The translations under genes and the position numbers were made by a program. From Cyclobacteriaceae bacterium (GTDB lineage Bacteria; Bacteroidota; Bacteroidia; Cytophagales; Cyclobacteriaceae): DNA of 64,000 nt. The notes under the pieces were generated by a model, which saw only the letters and a program-made list of their open reading frames with translations, searched no databases and had not been told where the DNA came from. The DNA lies in the NCBI GenBank assembly GCA_019694875.1, contig JAIBBC010000002.1, forward strand, positions 620,001 to 684,000, read 5' to 3'. This document shows, piece by piece, positions 13,804 to 24,918 of the stretch (positions within the stretch are counted from its first letter, which is position 1; each line of letters starts with the position of its first letter).

Positions 13804-14181
13804 ATGAAACTGACGGGAAAGAAAGTCCTCATTGTGGATGACGATACGCGTAATATTTTTGCGCTTACTGCTGTCTTGAAAGCAAAGGGCTATTCATGCA
13901 TAACGTCTCCCGGATCGCTGGAGGCCTTGAAATTGCTAAGCAGTAATCACGAAGTTGGAATTGTATTGCTGGATATGATGATGCCGGACATGGATGGGTA
14001 TGAAATGCTGACTACCCTGCGCAAAGGCTCGAATGCCGATTTGCCTGTAATAGCTGTTACCGCACAAGCAATGCTTGGAGACCGCGAGAAGTGCCTCGCG
14101 GCCGGAGCTGACGACTATGTGTCGAAGCCGGTTGATATTGATAAGCTGGTGGACATTTTAGATAAGTACCTTCAGAAATGA
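13804..14181 (+). CDS. Single-domain response regulator
   Basis: 125 residues, receiver only: VDDDTRNIFALT acidic pocket, D57 in LLDMMMPDMDG, VTAQAM with the conserved Thr, and KPVDID with the conserved Lys. It is strikingly like the third receiver of the preceding hybrid kinase (same DDxxRNIF and DMMMPxMDGY wording), suggesting it is a detached copy serving as the shuttle or sink of that kinase. It directly abuts the kinase stop and overlaps the CheR start by ATGA, so it is in the same operon. No output domain is present. Confidence 0.93.
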   Translation: MKLTGKKVLIVDDDTRNIFALTAVLKAKGYSCITSPGSLEALKLLSSNHEVGIVLLDMMMPDMDGYEMLTTLRKGSNADLPVIAVTAQAMLGDREKCLAAGADDYVSKPVDIDKLVDILDKYLQK

Positions 14182-15005
14182 GTGCCGATCTTCACCTCAC
14201 CGATGAGCAAATAGAGGTCATTCTTTCCGATTTGATCGAACATTACGGCTACGACTTTACGAACTACTCAGCCGCTTCGTTAAAAAGAAGAATTCAGCGA
14301 CTGCTCACTCTGGATAAGGTGGTAAGCTTTGCCGAATTCAGACATCGCATCCAGCATGATGCCGAATACTTTAAACGCTTTGTGGAACAGATTACCGTCA
14401 ATGTTACGGAAATGTTCCGCGATGCGCATTTCTATCGCACGCTTCGCGAAGAAGTTATTCCTGAACTTGCCACCCGGCCATTGATCCGCATCTGGCATGC
14501 AGGCTGCTCAACAGGTGAGGAAGTCTATTCAATGGCAATCCTGCTGCAGGAAGCCAATTTGTTGCAGAAATCACTGCTGTATGCAACGGATATTAATCCT
14601 GCCGTTCTTGAAAAGGTGAGGTTGGGGATGTTTCCGATGAGCCAGATGAAACAATATTCGGAGAATTATATTCATTCGGGCGGACGACATGACTTCTCGA
14701 AATATTACATCGCACAATACGATACAGCTAAATTTGATGAATCGTTTAAGAGCCGCATCATTTTGGCAACACACAACCTGGTGTCGGATAATTCCTTCAA
14801 TGAGTTTCAGTTGATACTTTGCCGGAACGTCATGATCTATTTCGACAAGGCGTTGCAGGATCGCGCGCTGGAGCTGTTTGATAACAGTCTGGAAAAACTG
14901 GGGTTCCTGGCACTGGGCTCAAAAGAGACTCTTAAGTTTTCATCGGTATCAGCCCGTTACAAGCAACTGGAGAATAAAGAGAAGATCTGGAGGAAAATGA
15001 GTTAG
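14178..15005 (+). CDS. cheR: CheR-type protein-glutamate methyltransferase
   Basis: 275 residues, normal length. An N-terminal helical domain (YDFTNYSAASLKRRIQRLL) precedes the SAM-dependent methyltransferase domain with VTEMFRDAHFYRTLRE, the SAM-binding IWHAGCSTGEEVYSMAI, and the LILCRNVMIYFD motif. The chemoreceptor-type target is not in this window: no MCP signalling hairpin, CheA or CheW was seen. The gene lies between a receiver and CheB, overlapping the first by 4 bases and separated from the second by one. The likely substrate is a Glu/Gln in the nearby HAMP or coiled-coil kinases, but this is inference. Confidence 0.93.
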   Translation: MSADLHLTDEQIEVILSDLIEHYGYDFTNYSAASLKRRIQRLLTLDKVVSFAEFRHRIQHDAEYFKRFVEQITVNVTEMFRDAHFYRTLREEVIPELATRPLIRIWHAGCSTGEEVYSMAILLQEANLLQKSLLYATDINPAVLEKVRLGMFPMSQMKQYSENYIHSGGRHDFSKYYIAQYDTAKFDESFKSRIILATHNLVSDNSFNEFQLILCRNVMIYFDKALQDRALELFDNSLEKLGFLALGSKETLKFSSVSARYKQLENKEKIWRKMS

Positions 15006-15006
15006 C

Positions 15007-15576
15007 ATGCAACCTGATTTTAAAATTGTGCTGATTGGAGGGTCGGCAGGAAGTTTGAGCCGCGTGCTGCGACTGTTACCGCACCTAACCAAAAAACTTA
15101 ATATAACCGTAGTATTGATATTTCACCGCAAGGAAGATGAAGACTCCGTATTGCACGATGTACTCGCAGATAAGTCGGGATTTGCAGTGAAGGAGGTGGA
15201 AGATAAAGATCCGATTCAGCGACACCATATTTACATCGCTCCGGCTGATTATCATTTGCTGCTCGAAAAGGATTTGACATTTTCTCTCGATATGTCGGAA
15301 AAGATTAACTTCAGTCGTCCCAGTATTGATGTAACGTTCGAGTCGGCAGCGGATGCTTTCGGTAAGTCGGTAGCTGGCTTGCTGCTTTCAGGCGCCAATG
15401 CAGACGGAGTAACGGGCCTTCAACTTATCCAGAGGCGGGGCGGGAAGATTATTGTTCAGGATCCTCGGAGCGCAGAAGTTCCATACATGCCTCAACAGGC
15501 AATCGACAAGCTCACGATCGACCTGATGCTTACCGAATTCAACACGGAAGAATTTCTTGCGCTGATTACGCAGTAG
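15007..15576 (+). CDS. cheB: CheB-type methylesterase without receiver domain
   Basis: 189 residues, catalytic domain only. The expected triad is visible with family spacing: S13 in LIGGSAGS, H40 in VLIFHRKED, and D133 in LSGANADGVTG. Conserved IYIAPADYHLLLE and the late PRSAEVPYMPQQAI also match. The usual N-terminal receiver of chemotaxis CheB is missing, so control by phosphorylation would have to come from the separate receiver two genes upstream. It reverses CheR methylation or deamidates glutamine. Its stop overlaps the convergent receiver gene at 15566 by 11 bases. Confidence 0.93.
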   Translation: MQPDFKIVLIGGSAGSLSRVLRLLPHLTKKLNITVVLIFHRKEDEDSVLHDVLADKSGFAVKEVEDKDPIQRHHIYIAPADYHLLLEKDLTFSLDMSEKINFSRPSIDVTFESAADAFGKSVAGLLLSGANADGVTGLQLIQRRGGKIIVQDPRSAEVPYMPQQAIDKLTIDLMLTEFNTEEFLALITQ

Positions 15577-15979
15577 ACTGCAGCGTCTTATTTACGTCAG
15601 CTAGCAATGCAGCAAACTCCGAAATGGTTGACGGCTTCACAATAAAATCACGTGCTCCCAACGCTTTAATTTTCTCAATGATTTTCGGATCAGACGAAGT
15701 TGAACACATGTAAATCGGAACGTGCTGCAGCCGGTCGAATGTGCGAAGCACCTCTAAACATTCAATTCCATTCATGCGGGGCATGTTTACATCCAGAAAA
15801 ATGCACTCCGGTTCCAGCGCGCTATCCGTCCGTAAGCGTTCAAGCGCATGAACGCCATCGTTGGCAAACGTGCATTGAATATCGGGATCAACCTTTTCAA
15901 CCGCGATCGTAAAAATTTCCTGATCGTCCAGATCGTCATCGATTACAAACCATAGCTTTTTGTTAGAAGCTGCCTTCAT
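15566..15979 (-). CDS. Response regulator, receiver only (Rcp1-like)
   Basis: 137 residues. Acidic cluster IDDDLDDQEIF, phospho-acceptor D63 in FLDVNMPRMNG, and KPSTISEF with the conserved lysine. The DDDxDD start and asparagine (MNG) are typical of the small receivers that serve phytochrome-like kinases with an HDLQEPL H box, two of which are in this window (8609 and 17662). No output domain. It converges on CheB and is followed upstream by a second receiver of the same type. Confidence 0.92.
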   Translation of the reverse strand: MKAASNKKLWFVIDDDLDDQEIFTIAVEKVDPDIQCTFANDGVHALERLRTDSALEPECIFLDVNMPRMNGIECLEVLRTFDRLQHVPIYMCSTSSDPKIIEKIKALGARDFIVKPSTISEFAALLADVNKTLQSTA

Positions 15980-16006: not shown

Positions 16007-16453
16007 CTAAGCGTTTACTACAAATTGTGATTTTTGCGGGAAGTACATCGTTCTTTTCCAGTCGATTGCGAGAATTCGTTCCAGTATGCTCTTCAGATCG
16101 CTGATCGAATTCGGTTTAATTACGTACAGGTTCGAGCCCTCGCGGTAGCAATACTCCACGCTATTAAGATCATTCAGCGAAGAATAGACGATGATAGGAA
16201 GACTGTCGTATTTTTTATTTGCCCGGATTTCTTTCAGGCACTGCTTGCCGTCCGTGCAGGGCATGAGTAAATCAAGAAACAGGATGTCGGGAAGTTCATC
16301 GTTGAGACACTTTAAAAGAATCTCTCCGTTTTCGGCACGTTTCAATACGTATGTAAAGGATGTTTCCTTTATCGCGATTGAAAAGATCAGGTAATCATCG
16401 TCATCGTCTTCAGCAACCAGAATATTGACAGGAGGTAGAGAATTTAGATTCAT
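16007..16453 (-). CDS. Response regulator, receiver only
   Basis: 148 residues. EDDDDDYLIF acidic pocket, acceptor D61 in FLDLLMPCTDG, a Ser in IIVYSSLND in the Thr/Ser position, and KPNSISDL with the conserved Lys. It belongs to the same small-receiver class as its downstream neighbour, only 27 bases away, and the two are probably co-transcribed. No DNA-binding or enzyme domain. A partner could be either receiver-kinase in this island. Confidence 0.92.
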   Translation of the reverse strand: MNLNSLPPVNILVAEDDDDDYLIFSIAIKETSFTYVLKRAENGEILLKCLNDELPDILFLDLLMPCTDGKQCLKEIRANKKYDSLPIIVYSSLNDLNSVEYCYREGSNLYVIKPNSISDLKSILERILAIDWKRTMYFPQKSQFVVNA

Positions 16454-17456: not shown

Positions 17457-17669
17457 ATGAGTCGCGCATTTATTAAAGAAGGAGATGATCAATGGCTGGA
17501 GGATATCGCTCCAACCCTGCACGCGCTGGTGAGCTTTCTCACGCGTGAGAATAATGGAATTCGTGTTTATGAAACAGGTACGCATAAGGCTGACGATGGT
17601 TCTGAAGTTGTTACCATGAGCAACGGACTATCGTATTCCAAGGCAAGTGGCCGCTGGAAAGTCATTTAA
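17457..17669 (+). CDS. Hypothetical small protein, 70 residues
   Basis: A soluble 70-residue protein beginning MSRAFIKEGDDQWLEDIAP and ending in a small beta section, GSEVVTMSNGLSYSK. The start has the MSRAFxxE style common in small Bacteroidota proteins of unknown role. The coding look is good (even acidic/basic mix, no hydrophobic run). It converges on the receiver-kinase at 17662, with stops overlapping by 8 bases. Function unknown. Confidence 0.6.
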   Translation: MSRAFIKEGDDQWLEDIAPTLHALVSFLTRENNGIRVYETGTHKADDGSEVVTMSNGLSYSKASGRWKVI

Positions 17670-18885
17670 CCGGAAAAGAAATTATAAACGTTGATCCCTG
17701 ATTGACCAGACTTCGGGCGGAAATAAATCCCTGATGCTGCTCGACAATTTTTTTGCAAAGCGCCAACCCAATCCCGGTTCCTTCAAATTCACCATTGTTG
17801 TGCAAGCGCCTGAACATTCCGAAAATATCTTCGGCATACTTTTGCTCGAACCCTATCCCGTTATCTTCCACATAAATCCTCACATACCGGTTGCCGGGTA
17901 GCTTCGTGGTTTGGTTTTCAGTCATCGTGTCAGACCGGATGCTGATCACCGGGTTTACATCCTGTTTTTTATACTTGAGTGCATTCGAGATGAGATTCTG
18001 AAATAATGGTCGCATCAGTCGCGCACTTGCATACAACGTTGGGAGGTTATCGATCGTGATCTTGGCATCTTTTTCCCGAATCTCATCTGCCAAATCGGAG
18101 AGCAGGTCACGCAAGGTATCGTTCAGATTCACAGACGTGAAGTCGCCCGGTTCTGCTGTGAGCTTTGAGAATGCGAGGATGTCGGCAATCAGCGTTTGTG
18201 TGCGCTCCGCTGCCCGTTGAATGCGGTTAATCAAATCAACGTCTTCCTGTGATTCCTTGTGACGGAGATACAGGCGGTCGCTGAACATTCTGATCTTACG
18301 CAACGGCTCCTGCAAATCGTGAGAGGCCATGAATGCAAAGCGTTCGAGGTTTTTATTGGCGTTTTCAAGATCGGCAATGTTTGTCAGCAACGTGCGGTTA
18401 AGGGAATTCACTTTTTCTTCCGACAGCATGCGATCTTTTATTTCGATCTCGAGGCTTTTGTTGATCGCTACAAGCTTTTGCTCTTGTTCAACCAGCAACC
18501 TGTTCTTTTTGTACAGATCAATCAATACACCAACCTTGGCCCGCAGAATGTCGGGATTGATCGGCTTGAAAATGTAATCGATCGCACCCGATTGGTATCC
18601 CTTATACATGTTATCATCACCGTAATTATTAGCTGTGATGAATATGATCGGGATGTGTTTCAGCTTTTCACGTTCGTAGATTAACGATGCCGTTTCGAAA
18701 CCGTTGAGGTTTGGCATCTTAACGTCCATCAGGATCATGGCAAAATCAAACTCAGCCAGCAGGATTTTTAATGCCTCCCGCCCGGAATGTGCCTTAACAA
18801 ACCGGTAACCGCTCGGTTCGAGAATAGTCTCAATCGAGAGCAGGTTATCTTCCCGGTCGTCAACTAACAGAATCTTGGGCTGCAT
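17662..18885 (-). CDS. Receiver-histidine kinase
   Basis: 407 residues: receiver 1-120 with D54 in LMDVKMPNLNG, coiled coil about 125-180, HisKA with H189 in MASHDLQEPLRK, HATPase_c with NLISNALKYKK N box and GTGIGLALCKKI. It resembles the kinase at 8609 but lacks the PAS domain. The gene follows the HAMP-repeat kinase with a single base between stop and start, so the two are co-expressed; the receiver probably takes phosphate from that giant kinase. Cytoplasmic, no membrane helices. Confidence 0.92.
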   Translation of the reverse strand: MQPKILLVDDREDNLLSIETILEPSGYRFVKAHSGREALKILLAEFDFAMILMDVKMPNLNGFETASLIYEREKLKHIPIIFITANNYGDDNMYKGYQSGAIDYIFKPINPDILRAKVGVLIDLYKKNRLLVEQEQKLVAINKSLEIEIKDRMLSEEKVNSLNRTLLTNIADLENANKNLERFAFMASHDLQEPLRKIRMFSDRLYLRHKESQEDVDLINRIQRAAERTQTLIADILAFSKLTAEPGDFTSVNLNDTLRDLLSDLADEIREKDAKITIDNLPTLYASARLMRPLFQNLISNALKYKKQDVNPVISIRSDTMTENQTTKLPGNRYVRIYVEDNGIGFEQKYAEDIFGMFRRLHNNGEFEGTGIGLALCKKIVEQHQGFISARSLVNQGSTFIISFPVK

Positions 18886-18886
18886 A

Positions 18887-21800
18887 TTATTTACAGAACC
18901 ACAGACGCATTAACGATAACAACTGATCTATCTTTACAGGCTTTGTAATATAATCCGAAGCTCCTGCTTCTATACATTTTTGCCGGTCGCCCTTCATCGC
19001 TTTCGCAGTTACGGCAATAATCGGCAACGTGCTATTCTTGTGCTCACGCCTGATCTTCTGGGTAGTTTCGTACCCATCTATTTCCGGCATCATAATATCC
19101 ATCAGCACCATTTCAATCTTTGGATTTTCATTCAGCAGTTGAATGGCTTCCTTACCTGATTCGGCCGTGATCACATTAATGTTGAATCGTTCGAACACGG
19201 TAGTCAGCGCGAAGAGGTTTCGTACGTCATCGTCCACAACGAGGATATTTTTGCCGGTGAGGATATCTTCTTTGTTCCGGATGTTTTCGATAATCCGCTG
19301 TTTCTCCGGTGCGATATCCTTATGATTGATGTGCAGATGAGAAATTGTCTCTTCGAGCAAGTATTCAATCGAGTTGGCACTTTTCGTGATCAGTGAACTG
19401 GAATTGAGGTTGATGTTGCTCAGTTCTGTTTTATTGAAATCCTTTGCTGAATATACGATCAGCGGGGTAAGTTTTTTCTTGAGCTTGTTGATCTGGTGAA
19501 TCAGGTCAAGACCGGAAACATCCGGAAGGGTGTAGTCCAGGATCACACAGTCAAACACCTGTTCTTTCATCAGCTTGACTGCCTTTTTACCATTGTCGGC
19601 AATAATCACATTCAATTTCTCGTCCTGCAGCATCTTGGCAATCTGTGATGAATCGATTTCATTGTCTTCGATTACAAGTACGCTGCGCACGGCTTTATTG
19701 TGGTACGAAACAATGTCGTTGAACAAGTCGTTCAGTACATCATTATTCAAAGGCTTCAGTAAAAAGCTTCTTGCTCCGCGTTTCAGCGCGAGCGTTCGGT
19801 TTTCTTCTCCCGAGATCACGTGGATCGGGATGTGACGGTAGTTCAGGTCGTTGCGTAGGAGTTCAATTACTTTCCAACCGCTGGTTTCCGGAAGTTTCAC
19901 GTCAAGTGTGATCGCAATAGGAGAGAAGCGGTTAATAAAATCAAACACTTCGAGATAGTTGGTTGCCATAACAGCTTTCAACCCATTCTCGTGGGCTTTC
20001 TCCATGATGATTTTCCCAAAACGAAGGTCATCTTCTACCACCAGCACTACTTGGTCGTTTGCCTGAATATGGTCGCGATCATCCCCGGTATCGTTGAGCA
20101 TTTCATTGACAACCTCTTTACGCGCATCAAGCGTTACGGCTGTTGTGCGGATTTCTGCACCCGGTACATCCGTCTGATATTGCTGAATTACTTTCAGGCT
20201 TTCCGGTGTATTGCGAGGCGTTACGTTTGGTACGCTCTCGGTAGGGAGGTAGAGTGTGAACGTGCTACCGATACCTGCCTGGCTGTCGAGCTCGATCGTT
20301 CCTCCAAGAAGTTCGGCAAGACCGCGGCTGATGGAAAGTCCCAATCCTGTACCGCCATATTTCCGGCTCGTTGAACCTTCTGCCTGCTGGAACGCTTCGA
20401 AGATAATCTGTTGCTTTTCCTGCGGGATACCGATACCAGTATCGCTGATCGAGAATCCGATAACCCTCGGTGCATTATCGAGATTCTGGTTGCCCGGCTT
20501 CCAGCTCTTGTTCGCGACAAACACGTTCAGTTTTACTTCACCTTTTTCCGTGAACTTGAACGCATTCGACAACAGGTTTTTGAGGATCTGGTTCAGACGC
20601 TGAATATCGGTCTCAATCGAAGCCGGCAATGAAATATCGGTTTCAATCTTGAACCGCAGGCTTCGCGCTTCTGAAATCGGTTTGAAAGTGGTTTCCACGA
20701 AGGATGCGATCTCGGAAATTCTAACCGTTGAAATGTTGGCCGAGATAAATCCGGACTCGATTTTTGAAAGGTCAAGAATGTCGTTGATCAGCTGGATCAG
20801 GTCATCCCCGCAGGAGTGAATGGTTTTTGCGTAGCGGACCTGCTTGTCGTTGAGGTTTCCCTCCGCGTTTTCATACAACTGCTGTGCGAGAATCAACAAG
20901 CTGTTCAGCGGAGTTCTCAATTCGTGCGACATGTTCGCAAGGAACTCCGACTTGTATTTCGATGTAAGCGTAAGTTGCTCGGCTTTTTCTTCGAGCGACC
21001 TGCGCGCTTCTTCCACCTCCTTGTTTTTCGCTTCCACTTCGTCTTTCTGCTTCACGAGCAGAAGGGCCTTATCCTGGAGCTCATCGTTTGTACGTCTCAA
21101 TTCTTCCTGCTGGGTTTTCAATTCACCCGCAAGTGATTGCGATTGTTCGAGGAGTTCTTCTGTACGGGTGTTGGTTTCGATCGTGTTCAACACGATACCG
21201 ATACTTTCCGTCAGCTGGTCAAGGAAGTCAAGGTGCGTGGCGCTGAATTGATCAAGCGATGCAAGTTCGATAACGGCCTTCACGTTGTTTTCAAACAACA
21301 CAGGCAGAATGACCAGGTTTGACGGCTTGGCTTTACCGAGACCTGAATTGATCTTCACATATCCGGCCGGTACGTTTGTTAAAAGGATTCTTTCTTTTTC
21401 GAACGCGCACTGTCCAACCAAACCTTCGCCAATCGCAAACTCGGTCGGAATGTTTTTCTCTTCTTTATACGCATACGCAGCAAAGAGCTTAAGCTTCTTG
21501 ATCTGCGCGGTGTCATCCTGACCCAAAATATAGAATGCTCCATAGTGGGCGCTTACCACTTCTGCAAGTTCCGAAAGGATACGTTTGGTTACCGTGTTCA
21601 AATCTTTCTGGCCCTGCAACATTTGCGTAAACTTCGCGAGGTTCGACTTCAGCCAGTCTTGTTCCTGTGTACGCAGCGTTGTTTCACGAAGGTTGGTGAT
21701 CATCTGGTTGATCGTATCTTTCAACGCTTCCAATTCACCTTTTGCATCCACACGAATCGCGCGTGTCAAGTCACCCTTCGTTACCGCAGACGCCACTTCA

Positions 21801-24730
21801 GAAATAGAGCGTACCTGCGTTGTCAGGTTTGCAGCAAGCTGGTTCACGTTTTCCGTCAAGTCTTTCCATGTACCCGATGCACCCGGTACACTGGCCTGAC
21901 CACCCAAACGACCTTCAACACCCACCTCACGGGCCACCGTTGTTACCTGATCGGCAAATACCGCGAGCGTATCAATCATCTCGTTGATCGTATCCGTCAA
22001 CTGCGCCAATTCACCCAAGGCATTGATCGACAGTTTTTGTTTCAAATTTCCTTTCGCCACCGAAGTCACAACTTTCGCGATACCCCGAACCTGACCCGTC
22101 AGGTTTGACGCCATCTGGTTCACGGAGTCTGTCAAGTCTTTCCACGTACCGGCAACGCCCCGTACCTCGGCCTGACCACCCAGCTTACCTTCCGTACCCA
22201 CTTCACGTGCCACACGCGTTACTTCAAATGCGAATGAGTTGAGCTGTTCGACCATCGTGTTGATGGTGTTCTTCAACTCAAGCATTTCCCCGCGTACGTC
22301 CACCGTAATCTTCTTCGATAAGTCACCGTTTGCCACGGCCGTTGTTACCGATGCAACGTTACGCACTTGGTCAGTCAGGTTACCCGCCATCTGGTTTACC
22401 GAGTCCGTCAAATCTTTCCATGTACCCGCAACACCCGGCACGAATGCCTGACCCCCGAGCTTACCATCCGTACCCACTTCACGCGCCACACGCGTTACCT
22501 CCGATGCAAACCCGCGAAGCTGGTCCACCATCGTGTTCAATGTATCTTTCAGCTGGAGAATTTCCCCGCGTACGTCCACCGTAATTTTCTGCGACAAGTC
22601 ACCATTCGCCACGGCAATCGCAACGTTCGCGATGTTACGAATCTGCGCTGTGAGGTTACCCGCCATTTGATTTACCGAGTCGGTCAAACCTTTCCACACA
22701 CCACCAACGCCTTTCACCGTGGCCTGGCCACCGAGTTTACCTTCCGAACCTACTTCGTTCGCCACACGCGTTACTTCCGAAGCAAAAGAGTTCAACTGGT
22801 CCACCATCGTGTTGATCGTGTCTTTCAACTCAAGCATTTCACCTTTCACGTCTACCGTGATCTTTTTCGACAAGTCGCCTTTCGCAACGGCCGTTGTTAC
22901 ATCGGCAATGTTACGTACCTGGTTCGTCAGGTTATCGGCCATTTTGTTTACCGAATCTGTCAAGTCTTTCCACGTACCACCTACACCCGGTACATCGGCC
23001 TGACCGCCAAGCTGTCCTTCCGAACCTACCTCGCGTGCCACGCGCGTTACTTCCGAACCGAACGAGTTCAACTGGTCCACCATCGTATTGATCGTGTTCT
23101 TCAACTCGAGCATTTCCCCGCGCACGTCCACCGCAATCTTCTTCGACAAGTCGCCCTTCGCCACCGCGGTTGTTACATCGGCAATGTTCCGCACCTGGTT
23201 CGTCAGGTTGGAAGCCATCTGGTTTACCGAGTCCGTTAAGTCTTTCCATGTTCCACCTACACCCGGCACGTTCGCCTGACCACCGAGCTGACCTTCGGTA
23301 CCCACTTCGCGCGCCACACGCGTTACCTCCGAAGAGAATGAGTTGAGCTGTTCCACCATCGTGTTGATCGTGTTCTTGAGCTCGAGCAATTCTCCTTTCG
23401 CATCTACCGTAATTTTTTTCGACAAGTCTCCGTTCGCCACAGCTGTCGTTACACCGGCAATGTTCCGCACCTGGCCCGTAAGGTTAGATGCCATCTGGTT
23501 CACGGAGTCGGTCAGATCTTTCCACACACCACCAACACCTTTTACCGTTGCCTGACCACCGAGCTTACCTTCTGTACCTACTTCAAGCGCCACGCGCGTT
23601 ACCTCCGAACCGAACGAGTTCAGCTGATCCACCATCGTATTGATTGTATCTTTCAGCTGAAGCATTTCACCTTTCACGTCCACCGTGATCTTCTTCGACA
23701 AGTCGCCTTTTGCCACGGCCGTTGTTACCTCCGCGATGTTACGCACCTGGTTCGTCAGGTTATCCGCCATCTGGTTCACGGAGTCTGTCAGGTTTTTCCA
23801 GATACCACCCACACCCTGTACCGTTGCCTGACCACCGAGTTTACCTTCCGTACCTACTTCAAGCGCCACACGCGTCACCTCCGAACCGAACGAGTTCAAC
23901 TGGTCCACCAGCGTGTTAATTGTGTTCTTGAGCTCAAGCATTTCCCCGCGCACGTCAACCGTAATTTTTTTGGAGAGGTTACCGCGTGCGATAGCCGTTG
24001 TTACTTCGGCAATGTTTCGCACCTGGTTCGTCAGGTTACCGGCCATCAGGTTTACGGAGTCGGTAAGGTCTTTCCACACACCACCAACGCCTTTTACTTT
24101 TGCCTGGCCCCCGAGCTTACCCTCAGAACCCACTTCACGCGCTACGCGCGTTACCTCCATGGAGAACAGGTTAAGCTGCTTCACCATGTAGTTTACTTCT
24201 TTCGCAATTCTTAGAAATTCTCCTTCAAGCTTGTGATCACCGATTTCTTCCGGCATCTCCTGCGACAGATTACCTTTCGCCACCGAGCTGATTACGTGCG
24301 CAATCTCGATGGTCGGGTGCACAAGGTCAGAGATGAGTACGTTCAACGAGTTTACACCTTCTTTCCATGAGCCCTTGTTGCTGGGGACTTCAATGCGTTG
24401 CGTGAGTTTTCCCTGTTTACCGATTGTGTTACCGGCACGGGTGAATTCGTTCATCATCCGCTCGTTCAGCGAGATGATTTCATTAAGCGTGTCGAATACT
24501 TTCCCGTTCAGACCAACTTCATCTACGGGCATGCGAACGGTAAAATTTCCGTTTTTCACTTCCGTGAGCACGCGAAGCAATTCGCGCGTGTCGAGTTGAG
24601 GAAGTTCAGTGTAATGACCATCGCCATTTCCGTTACCGTTTACATGAACGGGAACTTTATATTTTTTTTCTGCAGATTTTGAGATCGGAAGGGTTCCGGA
24701 TTTTGTTTTCGGGAAATTCTTTGTACTCAT
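18887..24730 (-). CDS. Soluble giant hybrid kinase with tandem HAMP repeats, GAF and three receivers
   Basis: 1947 residues from the ATG at 24730 ([12 protein letters not shown]); a longer in-frame start at 24817 reads a non-conserved hydrophobic leader and is rejected. There is no membrane segment. Residues about 50-190 hold divergent HAMP-like segments ([25 protein letters not shown]), then nine 92-residue units each with two HAMP half-types ([13 protein letters not shown] and [13 protein letters not shown]). GAF about 1040-1180, coiled coil to 1255, HisKA with H1269 in [11 protein letters not shown], HATPase_c, and receivers with acceptors near D1609, D1732 and D1878. The architecture is like fungal group III (Nik1/Os1) kinases, which respond to osmotic and envelope stress. 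It heads an operon with the receiver-kinase at 17662. Confidence 0.93.
21674..24157 (-). repeat. Nine tandem 276-bp units encoding HAMP pairs
   Basis: Within the giant kinase gene, a 92-residue unit recurs nine times in frame without spacer. Each unit opens with [10 protein letters not shown] or close variants, contains one GGQA and one WKDLTDSVN, then a GDLSKKI segment and closes near LNSF. The first starts at 24157 and the ninth ends about 21674. Eight units are closely similar; the ninth (with [11 protein letters not shown]) and part of the eighth ([15 protein letters not shown]) are more diverged. High similarity of neighbouring units at the DNA level makes the number liable to change by recombination and to assembly error. 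Confidence 0.9.
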
Positions 24731-24918
24731 AGCTGGGAGAATAAGGGTTGAGCGTTCAGAGATACGTAAAAACAGTAAGACGTAGTACATTCTCAGAGAT
24801 GCTGCCGGATAGGGCAAGCATTTCAGTGAATACGATTTTGTGTTTTGTTATTCAGACGATACAGTCATGTATGATTCGTTAACGTTTAATTGAATTTTGC
24901 CTCAGTTCTTTTAAGACG

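Follow-up and report, generated by a model that had tools for sequence, protein, structure and literature searches.

A poly-HAMP hybrid histidine kinase and its partner kinase in Cyclobacteriaceae: array architecture, unit conservation and changes in unit number

Known poly-HAMP kinases and the protein of the window

Histidine kinases carrying long HAMP arrays are known as the group III kinases of fungi (Nik1, Os1, Bos1 and TcsC) and as AskA and AskB of myxobacteria. The repeats of fungal CaNik1p are described as concatenated HAMP pairs of 92 residues, and CaNik1p lacking all of its HAMPs is reported to leave the pathway constitutively active (PMC3848655). On the bacterial side AskA, AskB and Amb07 (Sorangium) are poly-HAMP kinases already in print, and such kinases are treated in PMC7643160 and PMC4603909. 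According to the former, the M. xanthus gene for AskC directly follows askB; the AskC protein interacts with both AskA and AskB (Rec3 of AskA binding the AskC receiver in two-hybrid assays), and the cells require it to respond to ambruticin and glycerol (PMC7643160). In Aer2 of Pseudomonas aeruginosa, divergent HAMPs are reported to form chains, and the tandem HAMPs to switch in alternation (PMC3570549). As far as the literature searched shows (subscription journals lay mostly outside it), experimental work on the partner kinase is confined to Myxococcus, and a cross-phylum account of the poly-HAMP/partner pair was not found there.

The protein described here is a further member of this kind, which is known but has received little study, and is encoded in a stretch of 64,000 nucleotides from a Cyclobacteriaceae bacterium (the window). 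Its gene lies on the minus strand at 18887-24730 if it starts at the in-frame ATG; the open frame extends to a TTG at 24817 (18887-24817), giving a length of about 1,950 residues, or 1,976 counted from the TTG. The initial annotation had proposed a soluble kinase with nine units of exactly 92 residues at 21674-24157, followed by a GAF domain and three receivers, and all of this was borne out. Unit mapping on the minus strand placed the array at residues 221-1048, running from 24157 down to 21674: units 1 to 7 lie at 23882-24157, 23606-23881, 23330-23605, 23054-23329, 22778-23053, 22502-22777 and 22226-22501, and two diverged, position-specific units, 8 and 9, at 21950-22225 and 21674-21949. 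The array is preceded by a diverged HAMP region (24158-24637, residues 61-220) with a Pfam HAMP/HAMP_2 match near its end. It is followed by a GAF domain (21188-21607, residues 1071-1210; Pfam GAF_2, 6e-18), a HisKA domain with the SHELRTPL box and His 1298 (20750-20953), a HATPase_c domain (20237-20608) and receivers at 19718-20065, 19343-19696 and 18911-19246, all found by Pfam, the borders of the first two receivers being set by eye. The kinase domains and catalytic histidine were intact by Pfam scan and sequence inspection, and hydropathy, the only measure used for this, gave no transmembrane region.

The suggested likeness to Nik1/Os1 also held, in repeat length, lack of a membrane span and a HisKA-HATPase-REC tail, as judged from the published description (PMC3848655). 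However, the fungal proteins have four to six repeats and feed the HOG pathway, whereas the window protein has nine together with a GAF domain, three receivers and a partner. With AskA and AskB it shares the form of a soluble poly-HAMP hybrid kinase with several receivers, and with AskB-AskC a receiver-bearing second kinase gene directly downstream, an arrangement also present in a Myxococcus relative (L218). Kinship to AskA/AskB was gauged through a relative in M. qinghaiensis, to which the array units are 73-84% identical. The protein differs from the Ask proteins in its phylum, in its nine units and in a REC-HK partner lacking PAS; the roles in ambruticin response, development and DNA binding belong to the Ask side. 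Aer2 is also built with concatenated divergent HAMPs, a fold that the N-terminal region here may share, but it is a chemoreceptor with three plus two of them, whereas the window protein is a kinase whose repeats form a long array.

The count of HAMP domains was only partly as anticipated: all nine units carry HAMP, but Pfam detected about one per unit (9 HAMP and 10 HAMP_2 stretches in the kinase) and not a pair. In unit 5 both models matched the second half, and the first half was without a match at E ≤ 1. Profile comparison of the first and second unit halves matched only their 7-residue overlap, so that the pair gains no support from internal similarity; taking the pair structure from the published fungal and Aer2 work, the array likely comprises about 18 HAMP halves. 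One diverged unit, scoring 46 bits against the unit profile, lies within residues 61-220. This region aligns with the Aer2 structure of three HAMPs, and Aer2 gave its best structural matches; the predicted structure had a mean pLDDT of 57.9, and only its N-terminal part could be used. A solved N-terminal poly-HAMP fragment of a relative is found in PDB 9trj/9trk ('histidine kinase,Gcn4p'); it matches the array at E 2.6e-90 and is closest to the Myxococcus relative (E 6.6e-168). It differs from the window protein in being a fragment fused to a coiled coil, and was not among the structure-search matches (structure set ending 2026-04-08).

Distribution, partner kinase and the two-gene block

Close relatives, defined as matches at E ≤ 1e-55 to a query of the last unit plus GAF, were present in 2 of 17 genomes of the genus, 28 of 295 of the family and 9 of 395 of the phylum, the window's own genome being counted in the last two. 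A two-unit query of the species collection gave at least 580 matching stretches, of which the best 80 of 580 were retained by the resemblance of their units to the query (L103-L182). Among the matches listed, frames containing two or more full units numbered 128 and came from at least 13 named bacterial phyla; with these and the published AskA, AskB and Amb07, the idea that such a kinase is exceptional in bacteria is not supported. Matches also occurred in 169 plasmid records, 112 of them from Rhizobium. A phage or viral origin was considered and rejected, there being no match in phages. One IMG/VR contig filed as viral (L183) carries four poly-HAMP units at its edge. Recent transfer from afar into the window's genome was not favoured either: the Bacteroidota rows except L098 form one clade on a quick tree, and the flanks are collinear with another genome (G009). 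Separately, an Elusimicrobiota locus (L171) holds three distinct poly-HAMP frames, and frame breaks, real or due to assembly error, split arrays or kinases in L065, L073, L091, L077 and L187.

The partner gene of the window (17662-18885, minus strand; REC-HisKA-HATPase_c, 407 aa) begins one base past the stop of the poly-HAMP gene. A partner match over at least half its length was found directly downstream in all 36 Bacteroidota loci, with weak identity in L033 (29%) and L098 (27%). Further afield, the poly-HAMP gene is followed by REC-HK-REC in R. johnstonii, by REC-PAS-HK-REC in Azospirillum and by CheR and then REC-PAS-HK in Deinococcus, so that in Deinococcus deserti (L100) CheR separates the two kinases. 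In four genomes, of Myxococcus, Polyangium, Opitutaceae and Acidobacteriaceae, a REC-first kinase stands next to five of six poly-HAMP loci, and the sixth (L219) has a REC protein only, about 1.2 kb on. The locus L218 of Myxococcus qinghaiensis encodes a second, 14-unit poly-HAMP kinase, its units 72.9% identical to those of the window, and adjoins a REC-PAS-HK gene.

Overall, a partner match lay within 5 kb in 94 of 118 loci. The 24 others include ten with at most 1 bp of downstream sequence and six that do show a partner by other inspection. Wide recurrence in these neighbourhoods was limited to the partner (95 loci) and to a family of single-domain receivers (42 of the 118 loci), whose identity with the two receiver proteins of the window is not established. 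Those two lie near the module on the minus strand (15566-15979 and 16007-16453), and genes for CheR and CheB are found nearby on the plus strand (14178-15576). No recurring stress gene family was seen near the 118 loci, the counts within 5 kb being CheR 6, CheB 3, DUF2383 1, MgtC 1 and Dps 0. On plasmid pRL12 of Rhizobium johnstonii (L101) the module sits beside the glycogen and trehalose genes glgB, treZ and malQ.

Within the genus, 2 of 17 genomes carry the poly-HAMP gene, and those two carry the partner as well. In a same-genus genome (G002), the genes on either side share 87-95% identity with their counterparts in the window and lie 732 bp apart; the alignment ends at window position 17675 and restarts at 24910, so that the 7,234 bp at 17676-24909, with exactly both genes, is replaced by about 114 bp. 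The two genes are thus absent from this genome as one block.

Conservation and number of the 92-residue units

HAMP domains are usually taken as interchangeable relays of loosely conserved sequence. Among the matches listed, 36 of the 92 columns in 878 internal units were occupied at 99% or more by one residue, many of them polar, and identity between random pairs of internal units was 86.1% when both came from one protein, 84.2% when they came from one phylum and 83.2% when they came from different phyla. When 42 proteins of other phyla were compared with that of the window, identity was 84.5% for internal units (best match), 76.2% for the DHp, 54.9% for GAF and 57.1% for the CA domain; these proteins come from loci chosen by the likeness of their units, which inflates the unit identity between phyla. 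As a control, 32 complete Bacteroidota proteins chosen by their GAF end gave 83.0% for internal units (all pairs), 91.9 and 91.0% for units 8 and 9, 92.0% for DHp, 75.9% for CA and 74.1% for GAF, so that here the internal units were not above DHp. In the six loci of the four other-phylum genomes, units (72.9-83.6%) were slightly above DHp (68-79%) and above CA (58-66%), with looser units in two paralogues, from M. qinghaiensis (72.9%) and Polyangium (73.8%). Taken together, these comparisons put the conservation of the units at about the level of the phospho-acceptor helices, or a little above it between phyla, and clearly above that of the ATPase and GAF domains.

The geometry of the array was almost invariant, since 1049 of 1052 neighbouring units were spaced by 92 residues. 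The remaining spacings were one of 91 residues and two of 157, of which one spans a run of N (L113) and the other falls in L180, where the locus is broken and of low quality. The commonest sizes among 103 complete arrays were 11 units (38 arrays) and 9 units (37), followed by 10 (9), 12 (7), 8 (5), 6 (3), 7 (2), 13 (1) and 5 (1); two further arrays (L136 and L218) had 14. A quick tree of the 103 tails, in which 35 of 100 inner branches were weakly supported, required a minimum of 31 changes in unit number, and the number differed even within genus codes (9 and 11 in g18; 8 and 11 in g95). For AskB, such a difference separating M. xanthus from M. fulvus had been noted in 2015 (PMC4603909).

Unit-by-unit maps indicate that whole middle units come and go. 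The 8-unit array of L066 corresponds to units 1, 2 and 6-11 of its 11-unit genus-mate L067, with 98-100% amino-acid identity and 88-91% DNA identity between matched units, and against 11-unit relatives the nine units of the window pair with unit 1, with units 6-11 and, in between, with one or two from the stretch 2-5. The initial annotation had supposed that the ends are anchored and the middle expanded, and in the pairs mapped the ends were indeed orthologous and middle units gained or lost; its idea that the first and last units differ most applies to the diverged units 8 and 9 but was not supported for unit 1. Some arrays contain recent internal copies (units 2 and 5 of L033 are identical in protein and 92.4% identical in DNA). 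Recent homogenisation of the window's own units was rejected, as only 42-68% of shared residues have the same codon between units.

The initial annotation also expected the unit number to vary between strains. Variation between species is clear, but strain-level variation is not supported. Counting unit places, which can include the diverged unit, 38 of 39 Rhizobium plasmid rows among the matches listed had 11, the other being a single partial place, and all four distinct A. brasilense records had 7 (one that was read contains six full units and the diverged one). In one R. beringeri record the array is broken by a frame break into 3 plus 8 units. Two strains named Ensifer adhaerens have 8 and 10 units, with tails only 78% identical in DNA; apart from these divergent strains, no within-species variation was found among the listed plasmid records where it could be judged.

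Possible roles of the array

We consider it reasonably probable that the two genes form a signalling module of the AskB/AskC type, in which a HAMP rod sets the state of the kinase. The first gene product would be a soluble, presumably dimeric hybrid kinase, the N-terminal half of which may form a rod of about 20 HAMP domains, made up of two or three diverged domains and then nine pairs of 92 residues each. Rod and GAF would together keep the phospho-acceptor helices in either a kinase or a phosphatase state. Altered cytoplasmic conditions (judging by the relatives, a small molecule or a stress of solute or osmotic kind) could then be signalled down the rod to the DHp helices by alternating HAMP switching. 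Phosphoryl groups would pass to the receivers and from there to the partner kinase, which may dock on the first protein by its own receiver. The initial annotation had suggested a rotary or mechanical amplifier, a role that such a rod might also have. The signal, state and output proposed here are borrowed from fungi and M. xanthus, and the stress theme in particular would be a matter of likeness only. In favour of the scheme are the intact domains and catalytic histidine, the fixed spacing of the units, the recurrence of the partner downstream, the absence of both genes as one block from G002 and the published work on AskC, CaNik1p and Aer2. Several observations speak against it: the weak partners of L033 and L098, the REC-only neighbour of L219, the 24 of 118 loci with no partner match within 5 kb (with the reservations given above), the lack of a recurring stress family and the reported DNA binding of AskB, which would not be expected of a pure relay.

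Indeed, binding of PmrpC DNA by AskB and AskA in vitro (PMC7643160) raises the alternative that the array itself binds DNA and places the kinase on the nucleoid or at promoters. The Pfam helix-turn-helix family SpoIIID scored 44.9 bits over the array against a cut-off of 27, and an HTH was likewise found in the Ask kinases with SMART by their authors (PMC7643160). However, no single stretch passes for SpoIIID, so that the score adds up weak matches across the repeats; it also overlaps the HAMP helices, and the array is acidic, with a pI of 5.2 and a charge of about -11. We therefore regard DNA binding by the array as unlikely. Equally doubtful, in our estimate, is that the array is a tunable sensor, in which N two-state units, each with a balance set by a sequence fixed across bacteria, would respond cooperatively to solute, crowding or a ubiquitous metabolite, the gain or loss of middle units between specialised ends adjusting sensitivity and the partner reading the state.

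The fixed 92-residue length and the changes by whole units would suit a passive spacer fixing a distance. A spacer need not keep its sequence, yet more than a third of the unit's columns are nearly invariant (the 36 of 92 among the matches listed) and between phyla the units are no less conserved than the phospho-acceptor helices, which makes this reading improbable. Least probable of all appears to be a contingency locus, in which unit number would vary between strains and so tune sensitivity. The differences within genus codes g18 and g95, the 31 or more changes on the tree and the AskB difference between Myxococcus species (PMC4603909) are in its favour, but the constancy of the listed Rhizobium and A. 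brasilense records argues against it, and the units differ by about 20% in DNA, so that frequent slippage is not favoured.

Beyond the published cases, in which one AskB change was already in print, this analysis adds the spread over at least 13 phyla, the changes in unit number, the conservation of the units and the recurrence of the partner. The 92-residue pair is about 83% identical between phyla, though the length of the array changes freely between species. Should the array act as a sensor or gain control, the natural arrays of 5 to 14 units would provide a ready length series for the study of signalling through HAMP chains, and the finding would also bear on the fungal stress kinases targeted by fungicides.
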